Positions 39,200 through 53,994 of a stretch of DNA of 64,000 nt are shown piece after piece; position 1 is the stretch's first letter, and each line of letters begins with the position of its first letter. The notes below the pieces were generated by a model that saw only the letters and a program-made list of their open reading frames with translations, searched no databases and was not told the origin of the DNA. Position numbers and translations under genes: made by a program. Source of the DNA: Arthrobacter sp. 260 (GTDB lineage Bacteria > Actinomycetota > Actinomycetes > Actinomycetales > Micrococcaceae); contig NZ_JABFOE010000002.1 in NCBI RefSeq assembly GCF_013116745.1, positions 310,001 to 374,000 of the forward strand, given 5' to 3'.

Positions 39200-39336
39200 G
39201 GGTGTCTCCTTCGATGGTGGCTCTTTTTCCTAGCCTAGCGTTTCCCTCCGTCGACAACGACGCATCAACCGCTGCGGGACACACGGTGTTGGGTGACGTG
39301 TTCCGCTCAGGTGTAGAGTTGAAATTGCTAAACATA

Positions 39337-39434
39337 CGACAGGGGAGCGCCGCTCAGATCATGAGCGGGCGCTGAGAGTGCGGACTACCGCAGACCCTCG
39401 AACCTGATCCGGCTAGTACCGGCGAAGGGAGTCG
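39337..39434 (+). ncRNA. TPP riboswitch (THI element)
   Basis: A canonical thiamine pyrophosphate aptamer: P1 pairs CGAC with GTCG, the conserved GGGGAGC is at 39342-39348, CTGAGAGTGCGG begins at 39372, and the ACCCTCGAACCTGATCCGG block, followed by the CGGCGAAGGGAGTCG closing strand, completes it. It lies 80 bases upstream of the ykoE start and should lower expression when thiamine is plentiful. An expression-platform hairpin was not resolved by eye. Confidence 0.95.
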
Positions 39435-39514
39435 AGTATCTCAGGGTGCCCGGCCAGTGGCATTGCTGCGGGCCTCAGGTGCCCTCCCCTCCTGTACCTC
39501 AGGAGGAATTCATT

Positions 39515-40132
39515 ATGGCTTCATCACAAGCACGAACCCGGAACACCCCCACCTATCGCCCCAACTACCAGTGGCGGGTGGTCGATATCGTTGTCGCCTC
39601 GGTGGTGGCGGTCGCCGTCGGGGTGGTGTTCTTCGCCTGGTCCGCCGGTTACACGGGTATCTCGGCGATCACCAGTGCGTTCCCGCCGCTGGCCGGTCTC
39701 TATACCGGAGGGTGGCTGATCGCCGGGGTTCTCGGCGGTCTCATCATCAGGAAACCCGGCGCAGCCATTTACTGCGAGGTGCTGGCGGCAGCCGTCTCGG
39801 CGCTCCTCGGAACCCAGTTTGGCCTGACCACCCTGCTGTCCGGTGCCATTCAGGGCGTCGGCGCAGAACTGATCTTCCTGCTCTTCCTTTACCGCAAATG
39901 GAACCTCGGGGTGGCGTTGCTCGCCGGACTGGGTGCGGGGCTGGCCCTGGCGATCAGCGAGAACATTCTCTACAACGCCCTCTGGGCCTTCGAATGGCAG
40001 CTCATGTACGTGGTCTTCGCTTCCATCTCCGGCGTGGTGATCGCTGGCCTGGTGTCATGGTTGGCCGTCCGGGGGCTGGCGAAGACCGGCGTGCTGTCCG
40101 CCTTCGCCGCCGGACGAACGGCTGACGTCTAA
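39515..40132 (+). CDS. ykoE: Thiamine-precursor ECF transporter S component YkoE
   Basis: A 205-residue integral membrane substrate-capture protein. After a polar N-terminus of about 25 residues come five or six helices with the YkoE stretch AFPPLAGLYTGGWLIAGVLGGLIIRKPGAAIYCEVLAA. The ATG at 39515 has AGGAGG 8 bases upstream, which rejects the longer open frame. YkoE family proteins bind thiamine or hydroxymethylpyrimidine; the TPP riboswitch supports that role. It is followed 5 bases later by the double ATPase. Confidence 0.93.
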   Translation: MASSQARTRNTPTYRPNYQWRVVDIVVASVVAVAVGVVFFAWSAGYTGISAITSAFPPLAGLYTGGWLIAGVLGGLIIRKPGAAIYCEVLAAAVSALLGTQFGLTTLLSGAIQGVGAELIFLLFLYRKWNLGVALLAGLGAGLALAISENILYNALWAFEWQLMYVVFASISGVVIAGLVSWLAVRGLAKTGVLSAFAAGRTADV

Positions 40133-40137
40133 CCGGT

Positions 40138-41634
40138 ATGGCCGAGCACACGAGGAAGCGGGAAGCTGTCAGCATCGCCGCCCGCGGCTGGAGCTGGCGG
40201 CACGCCGGGCGGAAGAGACCAGCAGTCCAGGATATTGACCTGGTGGTCCAGCCCGGGGAGCGGGTGTTGCTGCTCGGTGCCTCCGGCTCCGGGAAGTCCA
40301 CCCTGCTGCACGGCCTGGCGGGTGTGCTCGGCGACGACGGGCAGGGCGAGGAGCACGGTTCCCTCACCCTGGACGGAAGCCCGCCCGGCCGGGTCCGGGG
40401 ACGTGCCGGGCTGGTCCTTCAGGACCCCGACACGCAGATCGTCCTGGCCCGGGTAGGCGACGAGGTGGCGTTCGGTGCCGAGAACCAGTCCGTTCCCCGG
40501 GCGGAAATCTGGGAGCGGGTACGGCAGGCACTTGACGACGTCGGCCTGGATGTCCCCCTGGACCGGTCGACCACGGCACTTTCCGGCGGGCAAAAGCAGC
40601 GACTCGCGCTCGCCGCGGTGCTGGCCATGCAGCCCGGGTTGCTGCTGCTGGATGAACCGACGGCGAACCTCGACCCCGAGGGGGTTCTGGAGGTGCGCGA
40701 CGCCGTCGTCCGCGTCCTGGACCGAACCGGCGCGACCTTCGTGGTGGTGGAACACCGGGTGGCGGTCTGGGCTGACGTGGTGGACCGGGTGGTGGTACTG
40801 GCCGCCGACGGCGGTGTTCTCGCCGACGGCCCGCCAGAGACCGTGCTGACGGATAGCGGGACCCGCGCGCGGCTGGCGGAGGCCGGGGTATGGATTCCCG
40901 GCCACCAGCCAGCTGTGCCCGGGCTGCTGCCATCCCCCGGGAACCCGCTCTTGGCTGCCCGTGGGCTTTCGGTGGCGAGGACCAAACGCGGTCCAGTCGT
41001 GCTCGATGAGGTCGACGTCGACCTGCAGGCCGGGTCGTCCCTGGGCATCGTCGGACCCAACGGGGGAGGCAAATCAACGCTCGCGCTGACCCTGGCCGGG
41101 CTCCTCCCACCACGCGGCGGGGCCCTGGCGGCCGCGCCGGCGCTCGCCCGTGGCGCGGGCACCAGCCCTCACGGCTGGAAGTCGGCCCAGCTGGTGACCC
41201 GGATCGGAACCGTGTTCCAGGAACCCGAACACCAGTTCCTCACCCACCGGGTGATCGACGAACTTGAATTCGGTCCGCGTCGACTGGAGAACAGCGACGA
41301 GGTAACGGTCCGACGGCGGGTCGATTCGATCGCTGAACGGCTCAGGCTCACGTCGCTGCTACAGGCCAACCCGTTCACCCTTTCCGGCGGCGAAAAGCGG
41401 CGCCTGTCGGTGGCGACCATGCTGGCGACCAACCCCGACATCCTGGTGCTGGATGAGCCCACCTTCGGACAGGACGCCAACACCTGGGCCGAACTGGTGG
41501 CGCTGATGGCCGAACTGATCCAGGGTGGTGGCAGCCTGGTGGCCGTCACCCACGACCAGGAATTCACCGAGGCGCTGGGAAGCCGGCTGCTGCGCGTCGC
41601 CGACAGCCAGGCTGTACCGGAGGTGGCGCCGTGA
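40138..41634 (+). CDS. ykoD: ECF transporter double ATPase YkoD
   Basis: A 498-residue protein with two complete ABC ATPase domains. The first has Walker A GASGSGKST (47-55), signature LSGGQKQR (148-155) and LLLLDEP (168-174). The second has GPNGGGKST (306-314), LSGGEKRR (415-422) and LVLDEP (436-441). The tandem arrangement is the rule for YkoD, in contrast to separate EcfA1/A2. It energises uptake with YkoC and YkoE and overlaps ykoC by a GTGA junction. Confidence 0.93.
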   Translation: MAEHTRKREAVSIAARGWSWRHAGRKRPAVQDIDLVVQPGERVLLLGASGSGKSTLLHGLAGVLGDDGQGEEHGSLTLDGSPPGRVRGRAGLVLQDPDTQIVLARVGDEVAFGAENQSVPRAEIWERVRQALDDVGLDVPLDRSTTALSGGQKQRLALAAVLAMQPGLLLLDEPTANLDPEGVLEVRDAVVRVLDRTGATFVVVEHRVAVWADVVDRVVVLAADGGVLADGPPETVLTDSGTRARLAEAGVWIPGHQPAVPGLLPSPGNPLLAARGLSVARTKRGPVVLDEVDVDLQAGSSLGIVGPNGGGKSTLALTLAGLLPPRGGALAAAPALARGAGTSPHGWKSAQLVTRIGTVFQEPEHQFLTHRVIDELEFGPRRLENSDEVTVRRRVDSIAERLRLTSLLQANPFTLSGGEKRRLSVATMLATNPDILVLDEPTFGQDANTWAELVALMAELIQGGGSLVAVTHDQEFTEALGSRLLRVADSQAVPEVAP

Positions 41635-42434
41635 GCGTTGACGTCCTGACGCCGCAGCTCACCGGACGGATCCTGCCGCGGGCCAACCCGCTGTCCAAAC
41701 TGTTCGCTGCGGTGCTGGTCACTGTGGTGGTGATGCTCAGCATCGACTGGGTGAGCGCCGCCGTCGTACTGGGCAGCGAACTGTTGCTCCTCCCACTGTT
41801 GGGGATCAGTGCCTGGCAGCTGCTCAAACGAACCTGGCCGCTAGTCCTGGCGGCAGTGGTCGCCGGTTACGGCACGGCCCTGCTCGCGGAGAAGACGGGA
41901 GCGGTGCTCCTGGAATTCGGGCCGGTGCTCTTCACCCAGGACTCGGTGAACTCGGGAATCGCCATTGGGTTGCGTGGGTTGGCCATTGCCCTTCCCGGCA
42001 TTTTCCTGTTGACGACCACCGACCCGACGGACCTCGCCGACGCGCTGGCCCAGAAACTGAAGATGCCGCACCGGTTTGTGCTGGGTGCCCTCGCGGGGCT
42101 GCGACTGGTGGGCCTGCTGGTGGACGAGTGGCGGACGCTCGGTCTGGCCCGGCATGCCCGCGGTGTCGGCTTCGAGGGCAATCCGGTAGCCCGGCTGCGG
42201 AATTTCCTTGGGCAGGGGTTCGGGCTGATCGTTCAGGCGATCCGCCGGGCCTCCCGGCTGGCGGTTGCCATGGAGGCGCGCGGTTTCGGGGCAGGGGACC
42301 GCACCTGGGCGAGGGAGAGCACTTTCACCCGGCTGGATCTCTGGGTTTGCCTGGTCGGCGTGCTGATCGCCGGGACAGCGGTCACCGCAGCGGTGTTGGC
42401 CGGAACCTGGAACTTCCTCCTCGACGCCAGTTAG
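41631..42434 (+). CDS. ykoC: ECF transporter transmembrane (T) component YkoC
   Basis: A 267-residue T component of the energy-coupling factor family (CbiQ/EcfT-like). Its conserved ARG motif coupling helices read LARHARGVGF and AMEARGFGAG, the latter near residues 218-227, as expected for docking onto YkoD. Five to six helices are present. The start is GTG and overlaps ykoD. It is convergent with the ECF sigma gene with a 4-base overlap of the two reading frames. Confidence 0.92.
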   Translation: MSVDVLTPQLTGRILPRANPLSKLFAAVLVTVVVMLSIDWVSAAVVLGSELLLLPLLGISAWQLLKRTWPLVLAAVVAGYGTALLAEKTGAVLLEFGPVLFTQDSVNSGIAIGLRGLAIALPGIFLLTTTDPTDLADALAQKLKMPHRFVLGALAGLRLVGLLVDEWRTLGLARHARGVGFEGNPVARLRNFLGQGFGLIVQAIRRASRLAVAMEARGFGAGDRTWARESTFTRLDLWVCLVGVLIAGTAVTAAVLAGTWNFLLDAS

Positions 42435-43717
42435 CCGGATGGCTCCGGTCCCAGGCCGGTCTGTCCGCCGACCTCGGCGGCCCGGCGCCGAAGGTGGTCC
42501 CGTTCCGCAGCATTGCTACACAGTTCAATCGCGGCGTGGAACGAGGCGACCGCCTCCGGTGCCCGACCCGCGCGTGCCAGGAGTTCCGCGCGCACTGCGG
42601 GAAGACGATGGTGGTGGGGGAGCCGGTCCTCCAGCCCGGCCAGCAACGCAAGGGCGGCCTCGGGCCCGTCGTCCTCCAACACGGCGACGGCGCGCGCGAG
42701 CCGCACCACCGGTGAACCGGTCAGCGCCTCCAACTCGGCGTACAGCGTTGCGATCCGATGCCACCGGGTGTCAGCTGCGCGGGCCGCGCTCGCATGCTCG
42801 GCGGCGATCCTGCCCTGGAGCAGGTACTCCAACGCCAGCCCCGACGTGTCCGGGGGAACCCTGCCCAGCAGGTCCAGCCCGGATCTTATCTCGGAGGCGT
42901 GCCATCGGCTCCGATCCTGCTCAGGCAACAGCACCAGCCCGCCATCGTCCGCCACTCGGGCGTCCCGGCGGGAATGCTGGAGTGTCATCAGGCCGAGCAG
43001 GGCGAGGACCACCGGTTGGTTGGGGAGCAGCCCATCGAGGACCTGCGCCAACCGGATCGCCTCGGCAGCGGACGAGGTGCGCACCGGGTCGTCACCGGTG
43101 GCCGGAGCGTACCCGGCGGTGAAGACGAGGTAGATGACTGCTGCCACCACATCCAGCCGATCCGCCAGCCGGTCTGCTGCCGGGAGGGTGAACGGAATGC
43201 CCGCGGCCGCCACCTTCTTCTTGGCCCGGGTAAGCCGGGCAGCCATGGTCGACTCCTGGACCAGGAACAGGCGGGCAATCTCGGTGACGCTGAGACCGTT
43301 GACGAACCTCAGTGCCAGGGCTGCCCGCGCATCAGCCGAGAGCGCAGGGTGGCAGCAGGTGAAGAGCATCCGCAACCGCTCGTCGGGCACGTGGCCGCCG
43401 ACGTCGATTGCCTGAGCGGCGTGGGCCCGTGCTTCGGCGTCGACCACCATGAGCGGTTCCCGCCGTCGGGCGATGGCCTCGGCGCGCACCTGATCCAGCG
43501 CACGTCGCCGGGCGGCCGTGAGGAGCCAGGCCGCAGGGGAGTCGGGGATTCCGTCGTGCGGCCAGGTACGAACCGCCGCGGCGAACGCTTCGGCCAGCGC
43601 GTCCTCGGCAAGGTCAAGCCGACGGAACCGGCCGACCAGCAGTGCGAGGAGTCTGGCCCAGTGGTCCTGCCAGGCCCGTTCAAGGACAACGTGTGCGTCC
43701 CCGGACGGACCCGGCAT
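42431..43717 (-). CDS. ECF42-type RNA polymerase sigma factor with TPR-like C-terminus
   Basis: A 428-residue extracytoplasmic-function sigma factor. The sigma-2 region is near residues 12-80 (LLALLVGRFRRLDLAEDALAEAFAAAVRTWP) and sigma-4 near 130-185 (LRFVNGLSVTEIARLFLVQESTMAARLTRAKKK). The remaining 240 residues are helical and contain the DUF6596/TPR-like extension that defines the ECF42 group. ECF42 factors are encoded with DGPF/YCII proteins and lack an anti-sigma factor; the two genes upstream on this strand fit that rule exactly. Confidence 0.9.
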   Translation of the reverse strand: MPGPSGDAHVVLERAWQDHWARLLALLVGRFRRLDLAEDALAEAFAAAVRTWPHDGIPDSPAAWLLTAARRRALDQVRAEAIARRREPLMVVDAEARAHAAQAIDVGGHVPDERLRMLFTCCHPALSADARAALALRFVNGLSVTEIARLFLVQESTMAARLTRAKKKVAAAGIPFTLPAADRLADRLDVVAAVIYLVFTAGYAPATGDDPVRTSSAAEAIRLAQVLDGLLPNQPVVLALLGLMTLQHSRRDARVADDGGLVLLPEQDRSRWHASEIRSGLDLLGRVPPDTSGLALEYLLQGRIAAEHASAARAADTRWHRIATLYAELEALTGSPVVRLARAVAVLEDDGPEAALALLAGLEDRLPHHHRLPAVRAELLARAGRAPEAVASFHAAIELCSNAAERDHLRRRAAEVGGQTGLGPEPSG

Positions 43718-44537: not shown

Positions 44538-45422
44538 TCAGGAAATTTTCGCCACCAGTTCCGACAGCTCCGCTGTGAGGTCGCCGGGAGTGGGAAGCTG
44601 CTGTCCGTCGAGCGAATTGACCGGGGCAAGGAGCCGGATGCTGGAGATCAGCCAGACGCCGTCGGCGTCGTACAGATCGGCGGGGACCAGTGGTCCGTAG
44701 CCGAGTTCCCACCCGGCAGCCTTCGCCACCACGAAGAGAGCGCTCTGCGACGTCCCGGGGAGGATCCCGCTCTCCAGCTGGGGGGTGAGCAGGGTCTTGA
44801 CGCCGTCCCGGACCCGGGCCAGCAGCACAGTCGAGGTGGGACCTTCCAGCACCTTGCCGTCGGAGGAGGTGAAGATGACGTCATCGGCGTCATGGGCGTG
44901 CGCGTACCGGACCGCGGCCATGTTGACCGCATAGGAAAGGGTCTTCGCGCCCATGAGCAGCCACGGTGCCCGTTGCGCCACGGTGCTGTCATACCCCCGG
45001 TCCAGGAGGAGCACTGCCAGCCCGTCCCTGCGCTGCCGCCGGGTCTTCTCGGGGACCGGCGATACCTGTACCCAGGCGGTGGGCGTGGTGGCTCCCTCGA
45101 CCCCGCGGGTCACCACCAGCTTCACTGCCAACTCGGTCTCGGGTAGGACGTCGGCGCCTGCCGTGTACTCGTCGAGAGCTGTGGCAATCGCCCGACGCCA
45201 TGCCTCCTGTGGGGGCAGTTCGAGGTCCAGTGACCGCGCCGACGACGCGAGACGGTCGAGATGGGCCTGCACCTTTCTGGCCTCACCGTTGAGGGCGAGG
45301 AGCGACTCGAAAATACCGTCCCCGCGCGTGGCGCCCAAGTCGGTGGCCATAATCTGCGGCACTGATGCGTCGGCCACGCGGCCGTCGTTGTAGGCGGGAT
45401 CCAGGAATACGAGAACAGTCAT
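44538..45422 (-). CDS. pabC: 4-amino-4-deoxychorismate lyase (class IV aminotransferase fold)
   Basis: A 294-residue PLP enzyme that releases pyruvate from aminodeoxychorismate to give p-aminobenzoate for folate. The PLP lysine is K160 in GAKTLSYAVN, and E193 in LEGPTS is the matching class IV glutamate; GDGIFESLLAL near 34-44 is also typical. A branched-chain or D-amino acid aminotransferase cannot be fully excluded, but the PabB-like gene 3 kb downstream on the same strand favours PabC. Confidence 0.85.
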   Translation of the reverse strand: MTVLVFLDPAYNDGRVADASVPQIMATDLGATRGDGIFESLLALNGEARKVQAHLDRLASSARSLDLELPPQEAWRRAIATALDEYTAGADVLPETELAVKLVVTRGVEGATTPTAWVQVSPVPEKTRRQRRDGLAVLLLDRGYDSTVAQRAPWLLMGAKTLSYAVNMAAVRYAHAHDADDVIFTSSDGKVLEGPTSTVLLARVRDGVKTLLTPQLESGILPGTSQSALFVVAKAAGWELGYGPLVPADLYDADGVWLISSIRLLAPVNSLDGQQLPTPGDLTAELSELVAKIS

Positions 45423-46994: not shown

Positions 46995-47561
46995 ATGACT
47001 AAAGTCTTCAGCAGGGTTGCGAAATATGGCACCGTCATCGGGTTTATGGCTGCCGCTTTGATGCTGATCTTTGGCGTGCGGTATTTCTTCGAACGGGATC
47101 TCTCGGCGGCTCTTGGCGGTGCAGCTGGAGCAGCTATCGGGCTGGCAGTGGGGCTGCCACTGGCTAGTCATCTGCTTCGAAGGAAAGAGCGGCGCCAGTC
47201 CGCTGCCGGAAGGATCGAAGTATCAATGCGCGCGCTCTCCGGTGACGACGGGATAACCACTCGCTGGAGAACCGGCGAGGTCCTCATCGGCCCCGGCACG
47301 TTGGCGTTTCACCGCCATTGGCGGACCTTCGCCATTCGCCCGTCAAAAGAACCTGTCTCCATCCAGATCGTGGGTGAGGTCGGCGGCCCATTGAGGAAAC
47401 CAGGCAAATGGGAAGCTTTCAACCGTCTGAATGGCAAGGAGGAGGTCCTTGCTCTGGGCACCCCATCGGGTCGGATCGAGGTGGCAGCAACACCGGCCCG
47501 GCTCAGGATGATTCAACAGCGGCTTGCGCCGCCTCCTGGTGGTCCTTCAGTACCTCGCTGA
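46995..47561 (+). CDS. Uncharacterised membrane protein, DUF2550-like layout
   Basis: A 188-residue protein with two hydrophobic segments (about 12-30 and 38-60) followed by a basic region and a small soluble beta-rich domain (TTRWRTGEVLIGPGTLAFHRHW). The layout resembles DUF2550 proteins but the match is not strong enough to name it. Its 3' end overlaps the convergent phosphotransferase gene by about 59 bases, and its GC is lower than that gene, so the two have different histories. Confidence 0.6.
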   Translation: MTKVFSRVAKYGTVIGFMAAALMLIFGVRYFFERDLSAALGGAAGAAIGLAVGLPLASHLLRRKERRQSAAGRIEVSMRALSGDDGITTRWRTGEVLIGPGTLAFHRHWRTFAIRPSKEPVSIQIVGEVGGPLRKPGKWEAFNRLNGKEEVLALGTPSGRIEVAATPARLRMIQQRLAPPPGGPSVPR

Positions 47562-48423
47562 TCACCCGGTGGGTGGCCGACTCCTCGTCGGAGCCCGTGC
47601 CGATGCACTCAACCAGGGTGATGAGTGCCTTCCACAGCGCCCATCCCCGGGCACGCGTCCAGGTCCCGTCGTCGAGGCCCACCCGGTCGCGGAACATGCC
47701 TCGGCCGGACTGATCCAGGAGGGTCCAGGCGACCGTCAGGTCACAGGCCGGATCACCGACGGCGCAGCAGCCAAAGTCGATGACCGCGGCCAACCGGCCG
47801 TCCCCGTCCACCAGGAGATTTCCTGCCGCCACATCACCGTGCACCCAGACGGGGTGCCCGGTCCACGGCGCACCGAGGGCGGCTTCCCAGACCCCGACTG
47901 CGGCATCCCCGGGCAGCACCTGCCCCAGTTCAGCGATCGCTGCCCGGGTCTCCGCGTCGTAGGTGGCCAACGGTCCGCCGCGGTGAAAGTTGTGTTCGCC
48001 CGGCGGGGGAGCACCGCCCGTTTCGATCCGGTGCAACGCCCGGAGGAAGTCCCCCAGCGAGGCGGCGCAGTCGGCCAGATCCACTTTGCCGGTGTCGCTC
48101 GCTGCGGTACCGTCGAGCCACCGGTAGACCGACCAGGGCCACGGGTAGTGATCGTCGGCGGCACCCTGCGCCACGGGTTGGGGGATTGGCAACGGAAGCT
48201 CGGCGGCCAGTACCGGGAGCCAGCGGTGTTCCTTCATCACCTGGGGGGCGTAACTCGCTGCGCTTGGCAGCCGGACCAGAAACTCCTCGCCGAGCCTGAA
48301 CGTCCGGTTGTCGTTCCCGCCCGGCAGCACCTCGGTCACGGTGAGCCCGGCCCAGCGGGGAAACTGGCTGGCGATCAACCGGGTGACCAGCTCCACCGAC
48401 AGCTCGGGCGCGTGATGTGTCAT
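47503..48423 (-). CDS. Aminoglycoside phosphotransferase (APH) family kinase
   Basis: A 306-residue kinase-fold enzyme. The catalytic loop HGDVAAGN is at 195-202 and the metal-binding DFGCCAVGDPACD at 216-228; the ATP lobe includes LPGGNDNRTFRLGEEFLVRLPS. Such proteins phosphorylate aminoglycosides, macrolides, choline or other small molecules; no resistance phenotype can be claimed from sequence. It begins 6 bases after the pabB-fusion gene and is likely cotranscribed with it. Confidence 0.85.
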   Translation of the reverse strand: MTHHAPELSVELVTRLIASQFPRWAGLTVTEVLPGGNDNRTFRLGEEFLVRLPSAASYAPQVMKEHRWLPVLAAELPLPIPQPVAQGAADDHYPWPWSVYRWLDGTAASDTGKVDLADCAASLGDFLRALHRIETGGAPPPGEHNFHRGGPLATYDAETRAAIAELGQVLPGDAAVGVWEAALGAPWTGHPVWVHGDVAAGNLLVDGDGRLAAVIDFGCCAVGDPACDLTVAWTLLDQSGRGMFRDRVGLDDGTWTRARGWALWKALITLVECIGTGSDEESATHRVISEVLKDHQEAAQAAVESS

Positions 48424-48429
48424 GATTCG

Positions 48430-50493
48430 TCAGCTGTCCGGGAAGTCGGAGCCGAGACCTGACAACACCCCGAAGGCCTTCGTGCGGACTTCCTCCCACT
48501 CATCGGCGGGATCAGAATCAGCGGTAATCGCCCCGCCGACGCCCAGACTCAGCCGGGTACCGCCGTCGTCGTCCTCCAGCACCAGGGTGCGGATGACGAC
48601 GGCGAGGTCCGCCGCCCCGTTCAGCGAGAAGTACCCAACGGCGCCCGAATACACACCGCGCGGTGCATTCTCCAGCTGGTCGAGGATAGCCATGGTGCTG
48701 ATCTTAGGTGCTCCGGTCATCGATCCGGCAGGGAACGCCACCGCGACGGCCTCAGCGCGTGACACCCCGGGACGCAATTGGGCGTCAATGGTGCTCACCA
48801 TCTGATGGACGGTGGCGTAGGTTTCGATCTCGCACAGCCGGCTCACGCTCACACTGCCGGGCACCGCCGCATGGGATAGGTCGTTACGCAGCAGATCAAC
48901 GATCATGACGTTCTCGGCACGGTCCTTCAGGGACGTCCGGAGGTCCTCGCGGAGCAGGTGGTCGGTCGAGGGGTCAGGGGAACGACGGCGGGTGCCCTTG
49001 ATCGGTTCGGCACGCAGGGCGCCGGTGGCGCTCAGGCGGAGGAACCGTTCCGGCGAGGTGCTGGCCACAGCGAAACCCGGAAACTGCAGGTAGTGGGCAA
49101 AGGGAGCCGGGCTGGATGTCCGCAGGGACAGGTAGATGGCCAACGGGTCCACCGGTGCCGCGGTGTGGGCGTGCAACGCGGTGGTCAGGCACACCTCGTA
49201 GGTGTTGCCGTCCCGGATCTCCTCCTGCGCGCGCCGCACCTTGTCCAGGTAGCTATCCCGGGTGTCCCGGGCACTGAACACGGGGGAGAGCTGACCAGGC
49301 TCCACTCCGCTGGAGATCGGGGCCGCCACCGGCCTGGAGGCTTGCACGACTGCCCGGCGCGCTGTACTGGCCCAGCCCCTGGCTTCCTCATCGCTGCCGG
49401 GGCCAGCCAGGGTGAGCAGGTAGGTGGCCTCCTGCTCATGGTCGATGACGACGGCCCGCCCGGCGAACAGGAGCGCCGCATCCGGAAGGGAACCGGCGGG
49501 GGCCGAGCTGCCGCCGGTCTCGCGTTTGAGCTCGTAGCCGAGGTAGCCGAGCCAGCCGAGGGTGAAGCCACACTGGTAGTCGGCGGGGGTGGGCACTGAG
49601 CGTCGGCCCCAGGTCCCGTCCAGCCAGCGGAAGAACGGGCCGGGAATGCGGGCCGTCACCGGGCCGGAAACCACCTCGGTGGTGCCCGCGGTATGCCGGG
49701 CCAGCTGACCGAACTGCCCGCCGTCGTCGGCCAGGATACTGAACCGGCTCCGCCCGCCGCCGCCCGCCGTCGAGTCGGAACTGTCCAGCCAGACCGCGCA
49801 CGCTGAACCGCCGTAGAGCGCGGAGAAGAGGTCGCCACCATCGGGCCGGCCCGGCAGGCGCTCCACCTGTAGCGTCACCGCGCGACGCTGTGCCCGTTCG
49901 ACGGCGAGCAGCGACCCACACTGCGGCAACCCCGTGAGGGCGAGCCGGACCCGCTGCGGCGCAGCCGGATCCCGGTGGCCGTCCACCACCAGGTCGGCGG
50001 TCAGCTGCGGCTGGTCACGGTCAAGCCAGGCCTGCTCCTGCCGTGCCCAGCGCTCCCAGAACGGAGCGAACGTGTCACCGTCGCGGTTGAGCGCACTGGT
50101 GCGCCGAACCTCCGCTGGAGCCTCCACCCAAATGCTCACATCAAGGAATTCCAGCGCCGCCCGGCACGCCGCGCCCACCCCTTCAACGATGACGACGTCC
50201 GCCGGCTCGGTGCTGTGCTCCGGCCCGTCGTCGTCGGCGGTCCAGTCCCAGGCCCTCCACCGGGCGGTACGACCCGCCGTCAGCGGGGCAAGCACCCCCG
50301 CAACGTACCGGTCCATGCCGGCTTCCAAACCGTCCCAGCCCGGGTAGATATCCTCAAGATGGAACAGGCTCACGGTGTGGTGCTCGCGGAGCAGGGCGGC
50401 CAGCTCGACCGCAAGGGTGGTCTTGCCAGCCCCCGACCGACCATCGACGGCGATGATCAACGGTACGACGGCGGTCCCGGCTTTGGGTGCCAT
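48430..50493 (-). CDS. pabB: Fusion of a uridine-kinase-like P-loop domain with aminodeoxychorismate synthase component I
   Basis: A 687-residue protein with two parts. Residues about 1-185 are a P-loop kinase-like domain (VDGRSGAGKTTLAVELA, Walker A 18-25; DVVIVEGVGAA) resembling uridine kinase/AAA ATPases. Residues about 200-685 are a chorismate-binding enzyme of the PabB/TrpE family, with EPIKGTRRRSPDPSTD, RAENVMIVDLLRNDLS, FPAGSMTGAPK and YSGAVGYFSLNG. The PIKGT signature favours PabB over TrpE. A glutamine amidotransferase partner is not encoded nearby. Position in a run with LysE-type exporter and APH genes suggests an operon. Confidence 0.88.
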   Translation of the reverse strand: MAPKAGTAVVPLIIAVDGRSGAGKTTLAVELAALLREHHTVSLFHLEDIYPGWDGLEAGMDRYVAGVLAPLTAGRTARWRAWDWTADDDGPEHSTEPADVVIVEGVGAACRAALEFLDVSIWVEAPAEVRRTSALNRDGDTFAPFWERWARQEQAWLDRDQPQLTADLVVDGHRDPAAPQRVRLALTGLPQCGSLLAVERAQRRAVTLQVERLPGRPDGGDLFSALYGGSACAVWLDSSDSTAGGGGRSRFSILADDGGQFGQLARHTAGTTEVVSGPVTARIPGPFFRWLDGTWGRRSVPTPADYQCGFTLGWLGYLGYELKRETGGSSAPAGSLPDAALLFAGRAVVIDHEQEATYLLTLAGPGSDEEARGWASTARRAVVQASRPVAAPISSGVEPGQLSPVFSARDTRDSYLDKVRRAQEEIRDGNTYEVCLTTALHAHTAAPVDPLAIYLSLRTSSPAPFAHYLQFPGFAVASTSPERFLRLSATGALRAEPIKGTRRRSPDPSTDHLLREDLRTSLKDRAENVMIVDLLRNDLSHAAVPGSVSVSRLCEIETYATVHQMVSTIDAQLRPGVSRAEAVAVAFPAGSMTGAPKISTMAILDQLENAPRGVYSGAVGYFSLNGAADLAVVIRTLVLEDDDGGTRLSLGVGGAITADSDPADEWEEVRTKAFGVLSGLGSDFPDS

Positions 50494-50518: not shown

Positions 50519-51136
50519 TCAGGCGACGGCGAGCAGGATGCCCACGGCTACAAACAGTAGGCCAAAGACGCGGTTCAGAACTATCTGACCCCGCGGATTC
50601 TGGGTGAACCGCCTGAACGACTTCGCGGCAGCTGCATAGAAGAACCACATGACGAGCACATCGATGGCCACCACCGTTCCCGCGAGGACACCGTACTGGC
50701 CCAGCAGCGGTTCGCTGGGCTTGATGAACTGGGGGATGAACGCGAGGAAGAACACGATCGCCTTCGGGTTGAGCAGGTTCACCCACAGGCCGCGCCGGAA
50801 CAGGGAGAAGGCACCCTCGGCCTGGCGGACCGCCGCCTGTTCCTCAAGGTCGGGACGCTGGAGCAGTTTCCGTATCCCCAGGTAGACCAGGTAGGCGGCG
50901 CCACCGAACCGGATGACGTTGAAGGCGACCGGTGAACTCGCGACGAGCAGTCCCACGCCTGCGGCCACCACCGCGATGTGCACCAGGAGGGCAACCTGCT
51001 GGCCCAGAATTCCCCACATGGATCGGCGGAATCCCACCGTGAGCGAGTTGCTCATGGTGTTGACGGCTCCCGCACCGGGGCTGAAGCTGATGAGGGCCTG
51101 GGCTCCCAGCAGAGCCAGCCAGACGGAAAAAGTCAC
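50519..51136 (-). CDS. LysE/RhtB family amino-acid exporter
   Basis: A 205-residue membrane protein with six helices. The N-terminal block LLGAQALISFSPGAGAVNTMSNSLTVGFRRSMWGILGQQ holds the LysE/RhtB signature, and LGIRKLLQ and GLWVNLLNPKAIVFFLAFIPQFI complete it. It probably exports an amino acid or related metabolite. First gene of the minus-strand run leading into pabB and the APH-type kinase gene; divergent from the MurJ-like gene. Confidence 0.9.
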   Translation of the reverse strand: MTFSVWLALLGAQALISFSPGAGAVNTMSNSLTVGFRRSMWGILGQQVALLVHIAVVAAGVGLLVASSPVAFNVIRFGGAAYLVYLGIRKLLQRPDLEEQAAVRQAEGAFSLFRRGLWVNLLNPKAIVFFLAFIPQFIKPSEPLLGQYGVLAGTVVAIDVLVMWFFYAAAAKSFRRFTQNPRGQIVLNRVFGLLFVAVGILLAVA

Positions 51137-52755: not shown

Positions 52756-53937
52756 TCAGGTGGTGGCGGGGGCCGGCTTGGGCTTACGATCCACCCGGCG
52801 GAGCCGGGCTGAGGCGAGGTGCAGGGTAGGTCCTGGGTCGCGGAGGTTCCACACACTGTGGACGCCCTGGCTGGCCCACCGCAGCGTGTCAACGACGTCG
52901 GTGATCCTCCCGCCGCGGCGTTCGACGCTGGCTCGCCGCAGGTCGCCGGCTGTCCAGGCGTAGCGCATGCCTGCTGCCGCGTCGGGCAGGTTGTCGACTT
53001 TCTCGCCCAGTACCAGCCGTCCCCACAGGTCGGTCAGTCCGGGCCGGGCCGAATTGGTCAGGGCCATGGATCCGAAGAACCGGCCATTGAGGTCGATCAG
53101 GTGATGGGCGCCGTCGTCGTCGATCAGGAACTGCAACTCCACCAGCCCCCACCAGCCGAGGTCCCGGAGCAGGGCCTCCGCCCGGGCCGCTAGATCCTCG
53201 TCCACGGGTACCGTCTCGGCCCGGGTGGATACGCCGTTGGGAGTCGGCCAGAGGCGTGAGGTCACCTGCTGCACCCGCCCGTCGAGGTGGCCGTCATGGA
53301 AAACACCGATCAGTGCACCGAGATGACCCTTGATGGGTTGCTGGAGGATCGGTTCGGCCCCGGATTTGAGGATCCGTTCGATCTGCGGGCCGGCGGATAC
53401 GGCGTCAGGAAAGAGCTTCGCTTCGATCCGGTGAGGGCGGGTCTGGCCGTGTGACCAATGGGTCAGGCATTTGACTACCACCGGCCCGTCCCACTCCGCG
53501 ATGGCCTGCGCGGTCGCCGGAACGGTTCTGGGCGCGGCAAGACCGGTGCGGTTTGCGCGGTCGGACAGCTCCACCTTGTTCAACGCCGCGTTCACGACGT
53601 CGGCCGGCGGGTGGGCCACCCGGGTAGGGATTTCGTCGCGGTAGGTGGCAAGTGCTGCCATCCAGTCATCGCCGCCGCCGAAGACGACGTCGTAGGATCC
53701 GACAGCCACCGCGCGGCGTACGCCCTCGATGAACGCGGTGCCGTCCTGCCGCGGCCGGGGTACTACGTGCCGGGCGGAAACGGCGACCGATGCGCACAGC
53801 ATGCCCCCGCCGTCGGGCGTGCCAACACCCACGAGCCAGCCGGACTGACGCAGTGACCGAACTGCTGCGAGCGCGCCCCTGTCCCGGCTGGTGCTGATGA
53901 CGAGGGCGCGGCGCCCCTCGTGTGTTGTGTCTTTCAA
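52756..53937 (-). CDS. ATP-grasp domain ligase, substrate unknown
   Basis: A 393-residue ATP-grasp protein of the carboxylate-amine ligase type. It begins with a Rossmann-like pre-ATP-grasp fold (ALVISTSRDRGALAAVRSLRQSG) and then shows ATP-grasp strands: GPVVVKCLTHWSHG, EPILQQPIKGHLGALIGVFHDG and the metal site VELQFLIDDDGAHHLIDLNGRFFGSM. TTG at 53937 is chosen, with GAGG 5 bases upstream, because the GTG at 53967 lies inside a terminator hairpin. The product is unknown; proximity to a flippase hints at envelope metabolism, which is conjecture. Confidence 0.8.
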   Translation of the reverse strand: MKDTTHEGRRALVISTSRDRGALAAVRSLRQSGWLVGVGTPDGGGMLCASVAVSARHVVPRPRQDGTAFIEGVRRAVAVGSYDVVFGGGDDWMAALATYRDEIPTRVAHPPADVVNAALNKVELSDRANRTGLAAPRTVPATAQAIAEWDGPVVVKCLTHWSHGQTRPHRIEAKLFPDAVSAGPQIERILKSGAEPILQQPIKGHLGALIGVFHDGHLDGRVQQVTSRLWPTPNGVSTRAETVPVDEDLAARAEALLRDLGWWGLVELQFLIDDDGAHHLIDLNGRFFGSMALTNSARPGLTDLWGRLVLGEKVDNLPDAAAGMRYAWTAGDLRRASVERRGGRITDVVDTLRWASQGVHSVWNLRDPGPTLHLASARLRRVDRKPKPAPATT

Positions 53938-53955
53938 GCTCGCCTCAAGAATTGT

Positions 53956-53994
53956 GAGCGTCCGCACCGATGCTCCACACCGGTGCGGACGCTC
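53956..53994 (-). terminator. Terminator after the histidine kinase gene
   Basis: Perfect 14-base inverted repeat GAGCGTCCGCACCG / CGGTGCGGACGCTC with an 11-base loop, between the histidine kinase stop (54097) and the ATP-grasp gene. It occupies the GTG at 53967 that would otherwise start the ATP-grasp gene, which argues for the downstream TTG. Confidence 0.75.

Follow-up and report, generated by a model that had tools for sequence, protein, structure and literature searches.

The kinase-PabB gene and its neighbours

The window, meaning the whole stretch of 64,000 nucleotides that was analysed, contained a gene in which a P-loop kinase domain was joined to PabB, together with the following features.

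39331-39447 (+): TPP riboswitch immediately upstream of the ykoE-like gene (69.4 bits for Rfam RF00059, gathering score 54.3)
39446-40132 (+): YkoE-like S component (PF09819, E 2.1e-37); mechanical ORF, the true start probably lying further in
40138-41634 (+): YkoD-like ATPase of an ECF transporter, containing two ABC domains
41631-42434 (+): YkoC/CbiQ-like ECF T component (PF02361, E 3.1e-23; TIGR02454 below cut-off)
44538-45422 (-): PabC-like aminodeoxychorismate lyase gene (NF005887, 315.7 bits against 278; Aminotran_4)
47503-48423 (-): APH-type phosphotransferase gene (Pfam APH, E 6e-47)
48430-50493 (-): kinase-PabB fusion gene, 687 aa (ORF, profile matches)
48430-49881 (-): PabB part of the fusion, aminodeoxychorismate synthase component I, residues ~205-687 (TIGR00553, PDB 8hx6)
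49924-50463 (-): P-loop kinase domain of the fusion, residues ~11-190, a PRK06547 relative (NF005115, AlphaFold2 model)
50519-51136 (-): LysE/RhtB-type exporter gene (Pfam LysE, E 1.1e-34)

The fusion gene opened with ATG behind a Shine-Dalgarno-like GAAGGA and had no internal stop across its 687 codons. As the first-pass annotation had described, an intact Walker A domain preceded a full chorismate-binding enzyme in a single ORF, and the Pfam matches agreed with the exporter and APH-type genes that it had placed before and after the fusion. Both neighbours were on the same strand, 25 nt upstream and 6 nt downstream, respectively. A frame error as the source of the fusion was ruled out because the frame in the window was open and conserved; chance or artefact was ruled out by the single-frame copies in at least 95 genomes of the family. 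Matches of the APH-type gene to resistance enzymes and to a thiamine kinase model were all weak. Elsewhere in the window, a sigma-70-like gene with DUF6596 (42431-43717, -) adjoined ykoC, and an ORF with a below-cut-off ATPgrasp_Ter match (52756-53967, -) adjoined a MurJ-like gene.

The Walker A motif GRSGAGKT occupied residues 18-25 of the fusion protein. Residues 68-139 matched PRK (Pfam PF00485) with 31 bits (cut-off 22); with this cut-off passed and the P-loop present, the domain is, judged by its sequence, a member of the phosphoribulokinase/uridine kinase superfamily. The NCBIfam model NF005115 (PRK06547) matched residues 11-170 with an E value of 1.8e-47 (model positions 15-170 of 172). 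Its cut-off of 173 was missed by the whole protein (160.9) and by the kinase domain alone (164.9), and was passed in none of 149 family genomes and 19 of 246 class genomes. ThiK is an APH-type enzyme, and its model TIGR02721 was absent from the 25 best models for the kinase domain, the weakest of which had an E value of 0.13. The AlphaFold2 model of residues 10-193 (pLDDT 96.5) was closest in fold to human UCK2 (Z 20.1, rmsd 2.5, 178 residues), and human NRK1 was also among the matches (Z 14.8); the nearest solved chain by sequence was 1rz3, a possible uridine kinase. The earlier label "uridine-kinase-like" thus suits the fold but not the udk model TIGR00235, for which the kinase domain scored only 32.9 bits (E 4.7e-8) against a cut-off of 220.3. 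When the profile of the kinase family was compared with true uridine kinases, it aligned in two separate pieces only, and the segment linking the catalytic DxxY to the next helix was missing in the kinase family.

Motif conservation was scored in 61 distinct kinase domains taken from the first 94 loci, 50 of them fused and 11 stand-alone. All 50 fused domains were identical at G18, S20, G23, K24, Y50, P51, G52, W53, E104 and G105, and likewise at R130, R137, D138, W146, W149 and E153. P-loop loss in close homologues was checked and not seen, G18, S20, G23 and K24 being kept throughout the fused set. The domain is apparently a working kinase of known fold with, so far, a candidate substrate only.

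In the C-terminal part, Pfam matches to Anth_synt_I_N and Chorismate_bind covered residues 223-359 and 412-672. The pabB model TIGR00553 (NCBIfam) was passed at 339.4 against a cut-off of 328.4, and PDB 8hx6 matched residues 206-680 with an E value of 6.4e-113. The PIKGT motif was found at K499, the lysine of this motif being the feature that separates PabB from TrpE; all 36 fusions in the alignment had K499. This part is PabB, a predicted aminodeoxychorismate synthase. Three chorismate-binding genes were found in the genome: L001, which was anthranilate synthase-like by ORF and motif (HPIAGS, TrpE-like), L003, which we read as isochorismate synthase-like, and the fusion gene. Because the first two are of other types, the fusion is the only PabB found in the genome. 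One glutaminase gene, located on another contig, passed the trpG/pabA cut-off. In 16 of 21 Micrococcaceae loci, PabC was included in the fetched stretch.

Kinase relatives beside vitamin-uptake genes

The kinase was matched at E 0.001 in 214 of 246 class genomes, many of the matches being weak, and its stand-alone form was widespread. Gene context was examined in the 107 kinase-holding loci of L095-L203 (L130 and L131, from genus g13, were kinase-free). In 18 of the 107, a stand-alone kinase was the next gene after ykoC, both being on one strand, with ykoD and ykoE preceding where the contig reached; 12 of these loci were from Microbacteriaceae or close relatives (including L095 and L104, both from family f4), three from Mycobacteriaceae and three from Corynebacterium. 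The first possible kinase start, a mechanical choice, overlapped the ykoC stop in 16 of the 18, and the other two had gaps of 12 and 26 nt. Thirteen of these 18 loci had a TPP riboswitch at gathering score (8 of 9 plus 5 of 9); two of the five misses were cut by a contig end (L152, L153) and three were misses at the gathering score (L147, L159, L170). No TPP riboswitch was found in the 10 scanned kinase loci lacking ykoEDC. At the level of gene order, the relatives of the fused kinase are linked in operons to thiamine uptake. The kinase was not directly behind ykoC in the other 89 loci, among them Streptomyces-like and Microbacterium loci.

Within Micrococcaceae, the kinase was not part of the ykoEDC operon, but ykoC was present on the opposite strand in the fetched stretch of 12 of 21 kinase loci, and a TPP riboswitch in 7 of 9 scanned loci (all except L132 and L136). 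The riboswitch-ykoEDC unit in the window was 6 kb from the fusion gene, and its YkoE matched B. subtilis YkoE (PDB 5edl) over 43-224 with an E value of 6.1e-22; the window scan found no TPP riboswitch at the kinase-PabB gene itself. One g13 locus (L131) had ykoE and ykoD and no kinase, showing that import does not demand the kinase. A SAM-IV riboswitch (L132, 9946-10067, +) was seen close to the fusion locus in a genome of the same genus. Neighbouring tRNA, hisG and DnaK genes were set aside as a functional link to the kinase, since they looked like mere synteny.

Uptake genes, a closely coupled kinase and TPP control together form the layout that one would expect of a vitamin-trapping kinase. 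Among the vitamins, thiamine was favoured because it fits YkoE and the TPP riboswitch, and also the PnuC gene found next to some of the kinases if that gene is read as PnuT-like. YkoE has been crystallised with thiamine bound (PMC5037267). In Bacteroides, the gene of the thiamine transporter PnuT shares an operon with the enzyme gene tnr3 (PMC5613172), and RNA-seq placed a TPP riboswitch ahead of cg1227, part of an ABC transporter, in C. glutamicum (PMC3890552). Our guess is that the C. glutamicum kinase follows the cg1227 transporter genes. ThiK, ThiM and ThiN are named as B1 salvage enzymes in PMC6593275, and in Table 1 of that paper YkoEDC is given as a transporter of HMP and YkoEDC2 as one of B1.

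That listing of YkoEDC is one reason to consider HMP or nicotinamide riboside as a possible substrate, with the kinase salvaging whatever the neighbouring transporter imports. The kinase lay directly behind a PnuC-family transporter gene in four Nanopelagicales-like loci (L112, L175, L184 and L189), none of which had a TPP riboswitch at gathering score. The L189 transporter passed the cut-off of TIGR01528, the nicotinamide riboside model PnuC, which would point to a substrate other than thiamine, and the NRK1 fold match is in keeping with this. TPP control in 13 of 18 operons points instead to thiamine compounds, and YkoE binds thiamine; we consider a kinase for nicotinamide riboside or HMP in place of thiamine rather unlikely.

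A slightly less probable alternative, and an unlikely one, is that the kinase stands in for uridine/cytidine kinase, serving pyrimidine nucleoside salvage in Actinomycetes, which would lack the usual Udk. Uridine-cytidine kinase was the closest fold, and of 246 class genomes only one passed the udk cut-off; the C. glutamicum kinase passed the NF005115 cut-off, and a udk match at E 1e-30 was absent there. Of the 41 genomes in the G368 family, 36 had udk over its cut-off and only 5 had a strong kinase (E < 1e-20). However, both enzymes were carried by three genomes of this family (G531, G568 and G571) and by 2 of the 12 phylum-sample genomes with a udk match (G612 and G746), so that Udk replacement, good within the class, was dropped as the leading idea. 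The missing segment after DxxY and the two-piece alignment also speak against a uridine kinase, as does an operon context of vitamin uptake rather than nucleosides. The udk and kinase genes of the three G368-family genomes were about 65 kb apart.

Spread of the fusion and loss of its halves

The family sample held 149 genomes of 32 genera; family f1 was taken as Micrococcaceae, its closest named loci being those of Sinomonas and Arthrobacter. At least 95 of the 149 genomes, from at least 21 of the 32 genera, carried kinase and PabB in one open frame. A strong kinase match was obtained in 142 genomes and was absent from seven, namely all six of genus g13 plus G078. A strong kinase without a recorded single-frame fusion was found in 47 genomes, with G029 and G070 cut by contig ends; kinase and PabB were split over two frames in G133, and the G067 kinase was at a contig edge. 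Outside the family, no frame with both parts was met among the matches listed (198 genomes of the order), and among 69 named loci with the kinase or a relative, PabB was in frame only in Sinomonas and Arthrobacter mobilis. The fusion is unusual, as had been supposed, and the most fitting label for the protein is a new domain architecture, in which PabB is paired with an apparently working salvage-type kinase. In our literature search, in which subscription journals were thinly covered, no title or abstract concerned a kinase-PabB fusion or PRK06547, and none concerned an actinobacterial thiamine kinase with a link to ykoEDC. Long frames of up to 1388 aa surrounded the kinase in other families and may be chance in GC-rich DNA; one of them (L041) was examined and had no PabB match. 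One short PabB-like piece was seen in viral contigs.

A quick maximum-likelihood tree was built from 102 kinase domains, with 54 fused rows thinned to 40 and outside rows of at least 140 bits. A supported branch (97) separated most kinases of ykoEDC operons from the fused kinases, so the substrates of the two groups may differ. The 40 fused and 15 stand-alone Micrococcaceae kinases were interspersed within a single group (SH-aLRT 88); there the labels implied at least 6 changes for fused rows and 7 for stand-alone rows, many inner branches being weak. We read this as a single fusion after which the PabB half was lost repeatedly, a simpler course than repeated identical fusion; several gains would also be compatible with the label test.

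Each half was found to persist without the other. The stand-alone kinase of G131 clustered with the fused kinases of its genus (SH 91) and lay in the same neighbourhood as its fused relatives, and no PabB remnant was found beside it. The best match to the full fusion protein anywhere in G131 had an E value of 1.7e-53, about the level of TrpE, indicating that PabB itself seems gone. Nine genera with no fusion recorded also had a kinase without PabB in frame. Conversely, genus g13 kept PabB without the kinase domain. Second PabB genes with an N-terminal kinase remnant occurred in G116 (L207) and G136 (L208), both of which also carry an intact fusion. These paralogues had lost the P-loop lysine, the RD pair and most other kinase residues, the G116 copy E104 in addition, and had kept PIKGT. 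Decay of the domain where an intact copy exists elsewhere suggests that the kinase domain of the main copies is kept under selection.

Since neither half needs the other, regulation is disfavoured as the reason for the fusion. The full-length model (pTM 0.90) may mean that the two domains are in contact and could communicate; nevertheless, control of the synthase through nucleotide binding by the kinase domain, or phosphorylation of a PABA/folate intermediate by it, is very improbable, because conservation across the family's genera and frequent proximity to PabC are set against halves that persist alone, kinase-dead paralogues that retain the PabB motif, and relatives outside the family without PabB in frame. 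The regulatory role proposed in the first-pass annotation is thus not supported in view of g13, the nine genera, G131 and the G116 and G136 paralogues. Its other suggestion, an unrecognised phosphorylation, fared better as an idea, although the context is that of vitamin salvage and not of PABA chemistry.

Proposed role and comparison with known systems

Our preferred reading, held with belief and doubt about evenly balanced, is that two enzymes share one chain: PabB and a vitamin-salvage kinase, most likely for thiamine, that became joined to it in a Micrococcaceae ancestor. The C-terminal PabB would make aminodeoxychorismate with a glutaminase encoded elsewhere (TrpG/PabA) and with the nearby PabC. 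The N-terminal kinase would phosphorylate an imported vitamin, thiamine first, and so trap it in the cell. We infer that in the ancestor the kinase lay in a cofactor locus beside pabB-pabC and ykoEDC before it was joined to PabB. The joint would help co-expression at most, the synthase presumably not being controlled by the kinase. A conserved fusion is not proof of functional coupling, and the losses of each half argue otherwise here.

More tentatively, and with doubt outweighing belief, PRK06547-type kinases may be the thiamine kinase of Actinomycetes, placed behind YkoEDC or PnuC importers, often under TPP control, and fused to PABA synthase in Micrococcaceae. If true, this would give a function to a kinase family still called "hypothetical" in NCBIfam and widespread in Actinomycetes, some of them lineages with small genomes. 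It would also provide a candidate enzyme for converting imported thiamine to its phosphate. It would further place a B1 salvage enzyme and the PABA synthase of the B9 pathway in one polypeptide in Micrococcaceae.

Among known systems, the stand-alone PRK06547/NF005115 protein (172 aa, "hypothetical protein") is homologous over the whole kinase domain and has the same invariant residues, whereas the domain in the window is below the curated cut-off and fused to PabB. Udk and UCK2 share with it the fold, the P-loop and the D/E-x-x-Y, EG and RD motifs; it differs from Udk in its far lower udk score and in the absence of the segment after DxxY. The fusion has the full PabB part and the PIKGT motif of TIGR00553 proteins and of fused synthases such as 8hx6, but its N-terminal partner is a kinase and not a glutaminase, the domain that 8hx6 presumably carries, given its length of 702 residues. 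S. pombe Tad2 (7eey; Z 18.1 to the kinase model) also bears a uridine-kinase-like N-terminal domain on an unrelated enzyme, which in that case is a eukaryotic tRNA deaminase, unlike the bacterial PabB fusion.
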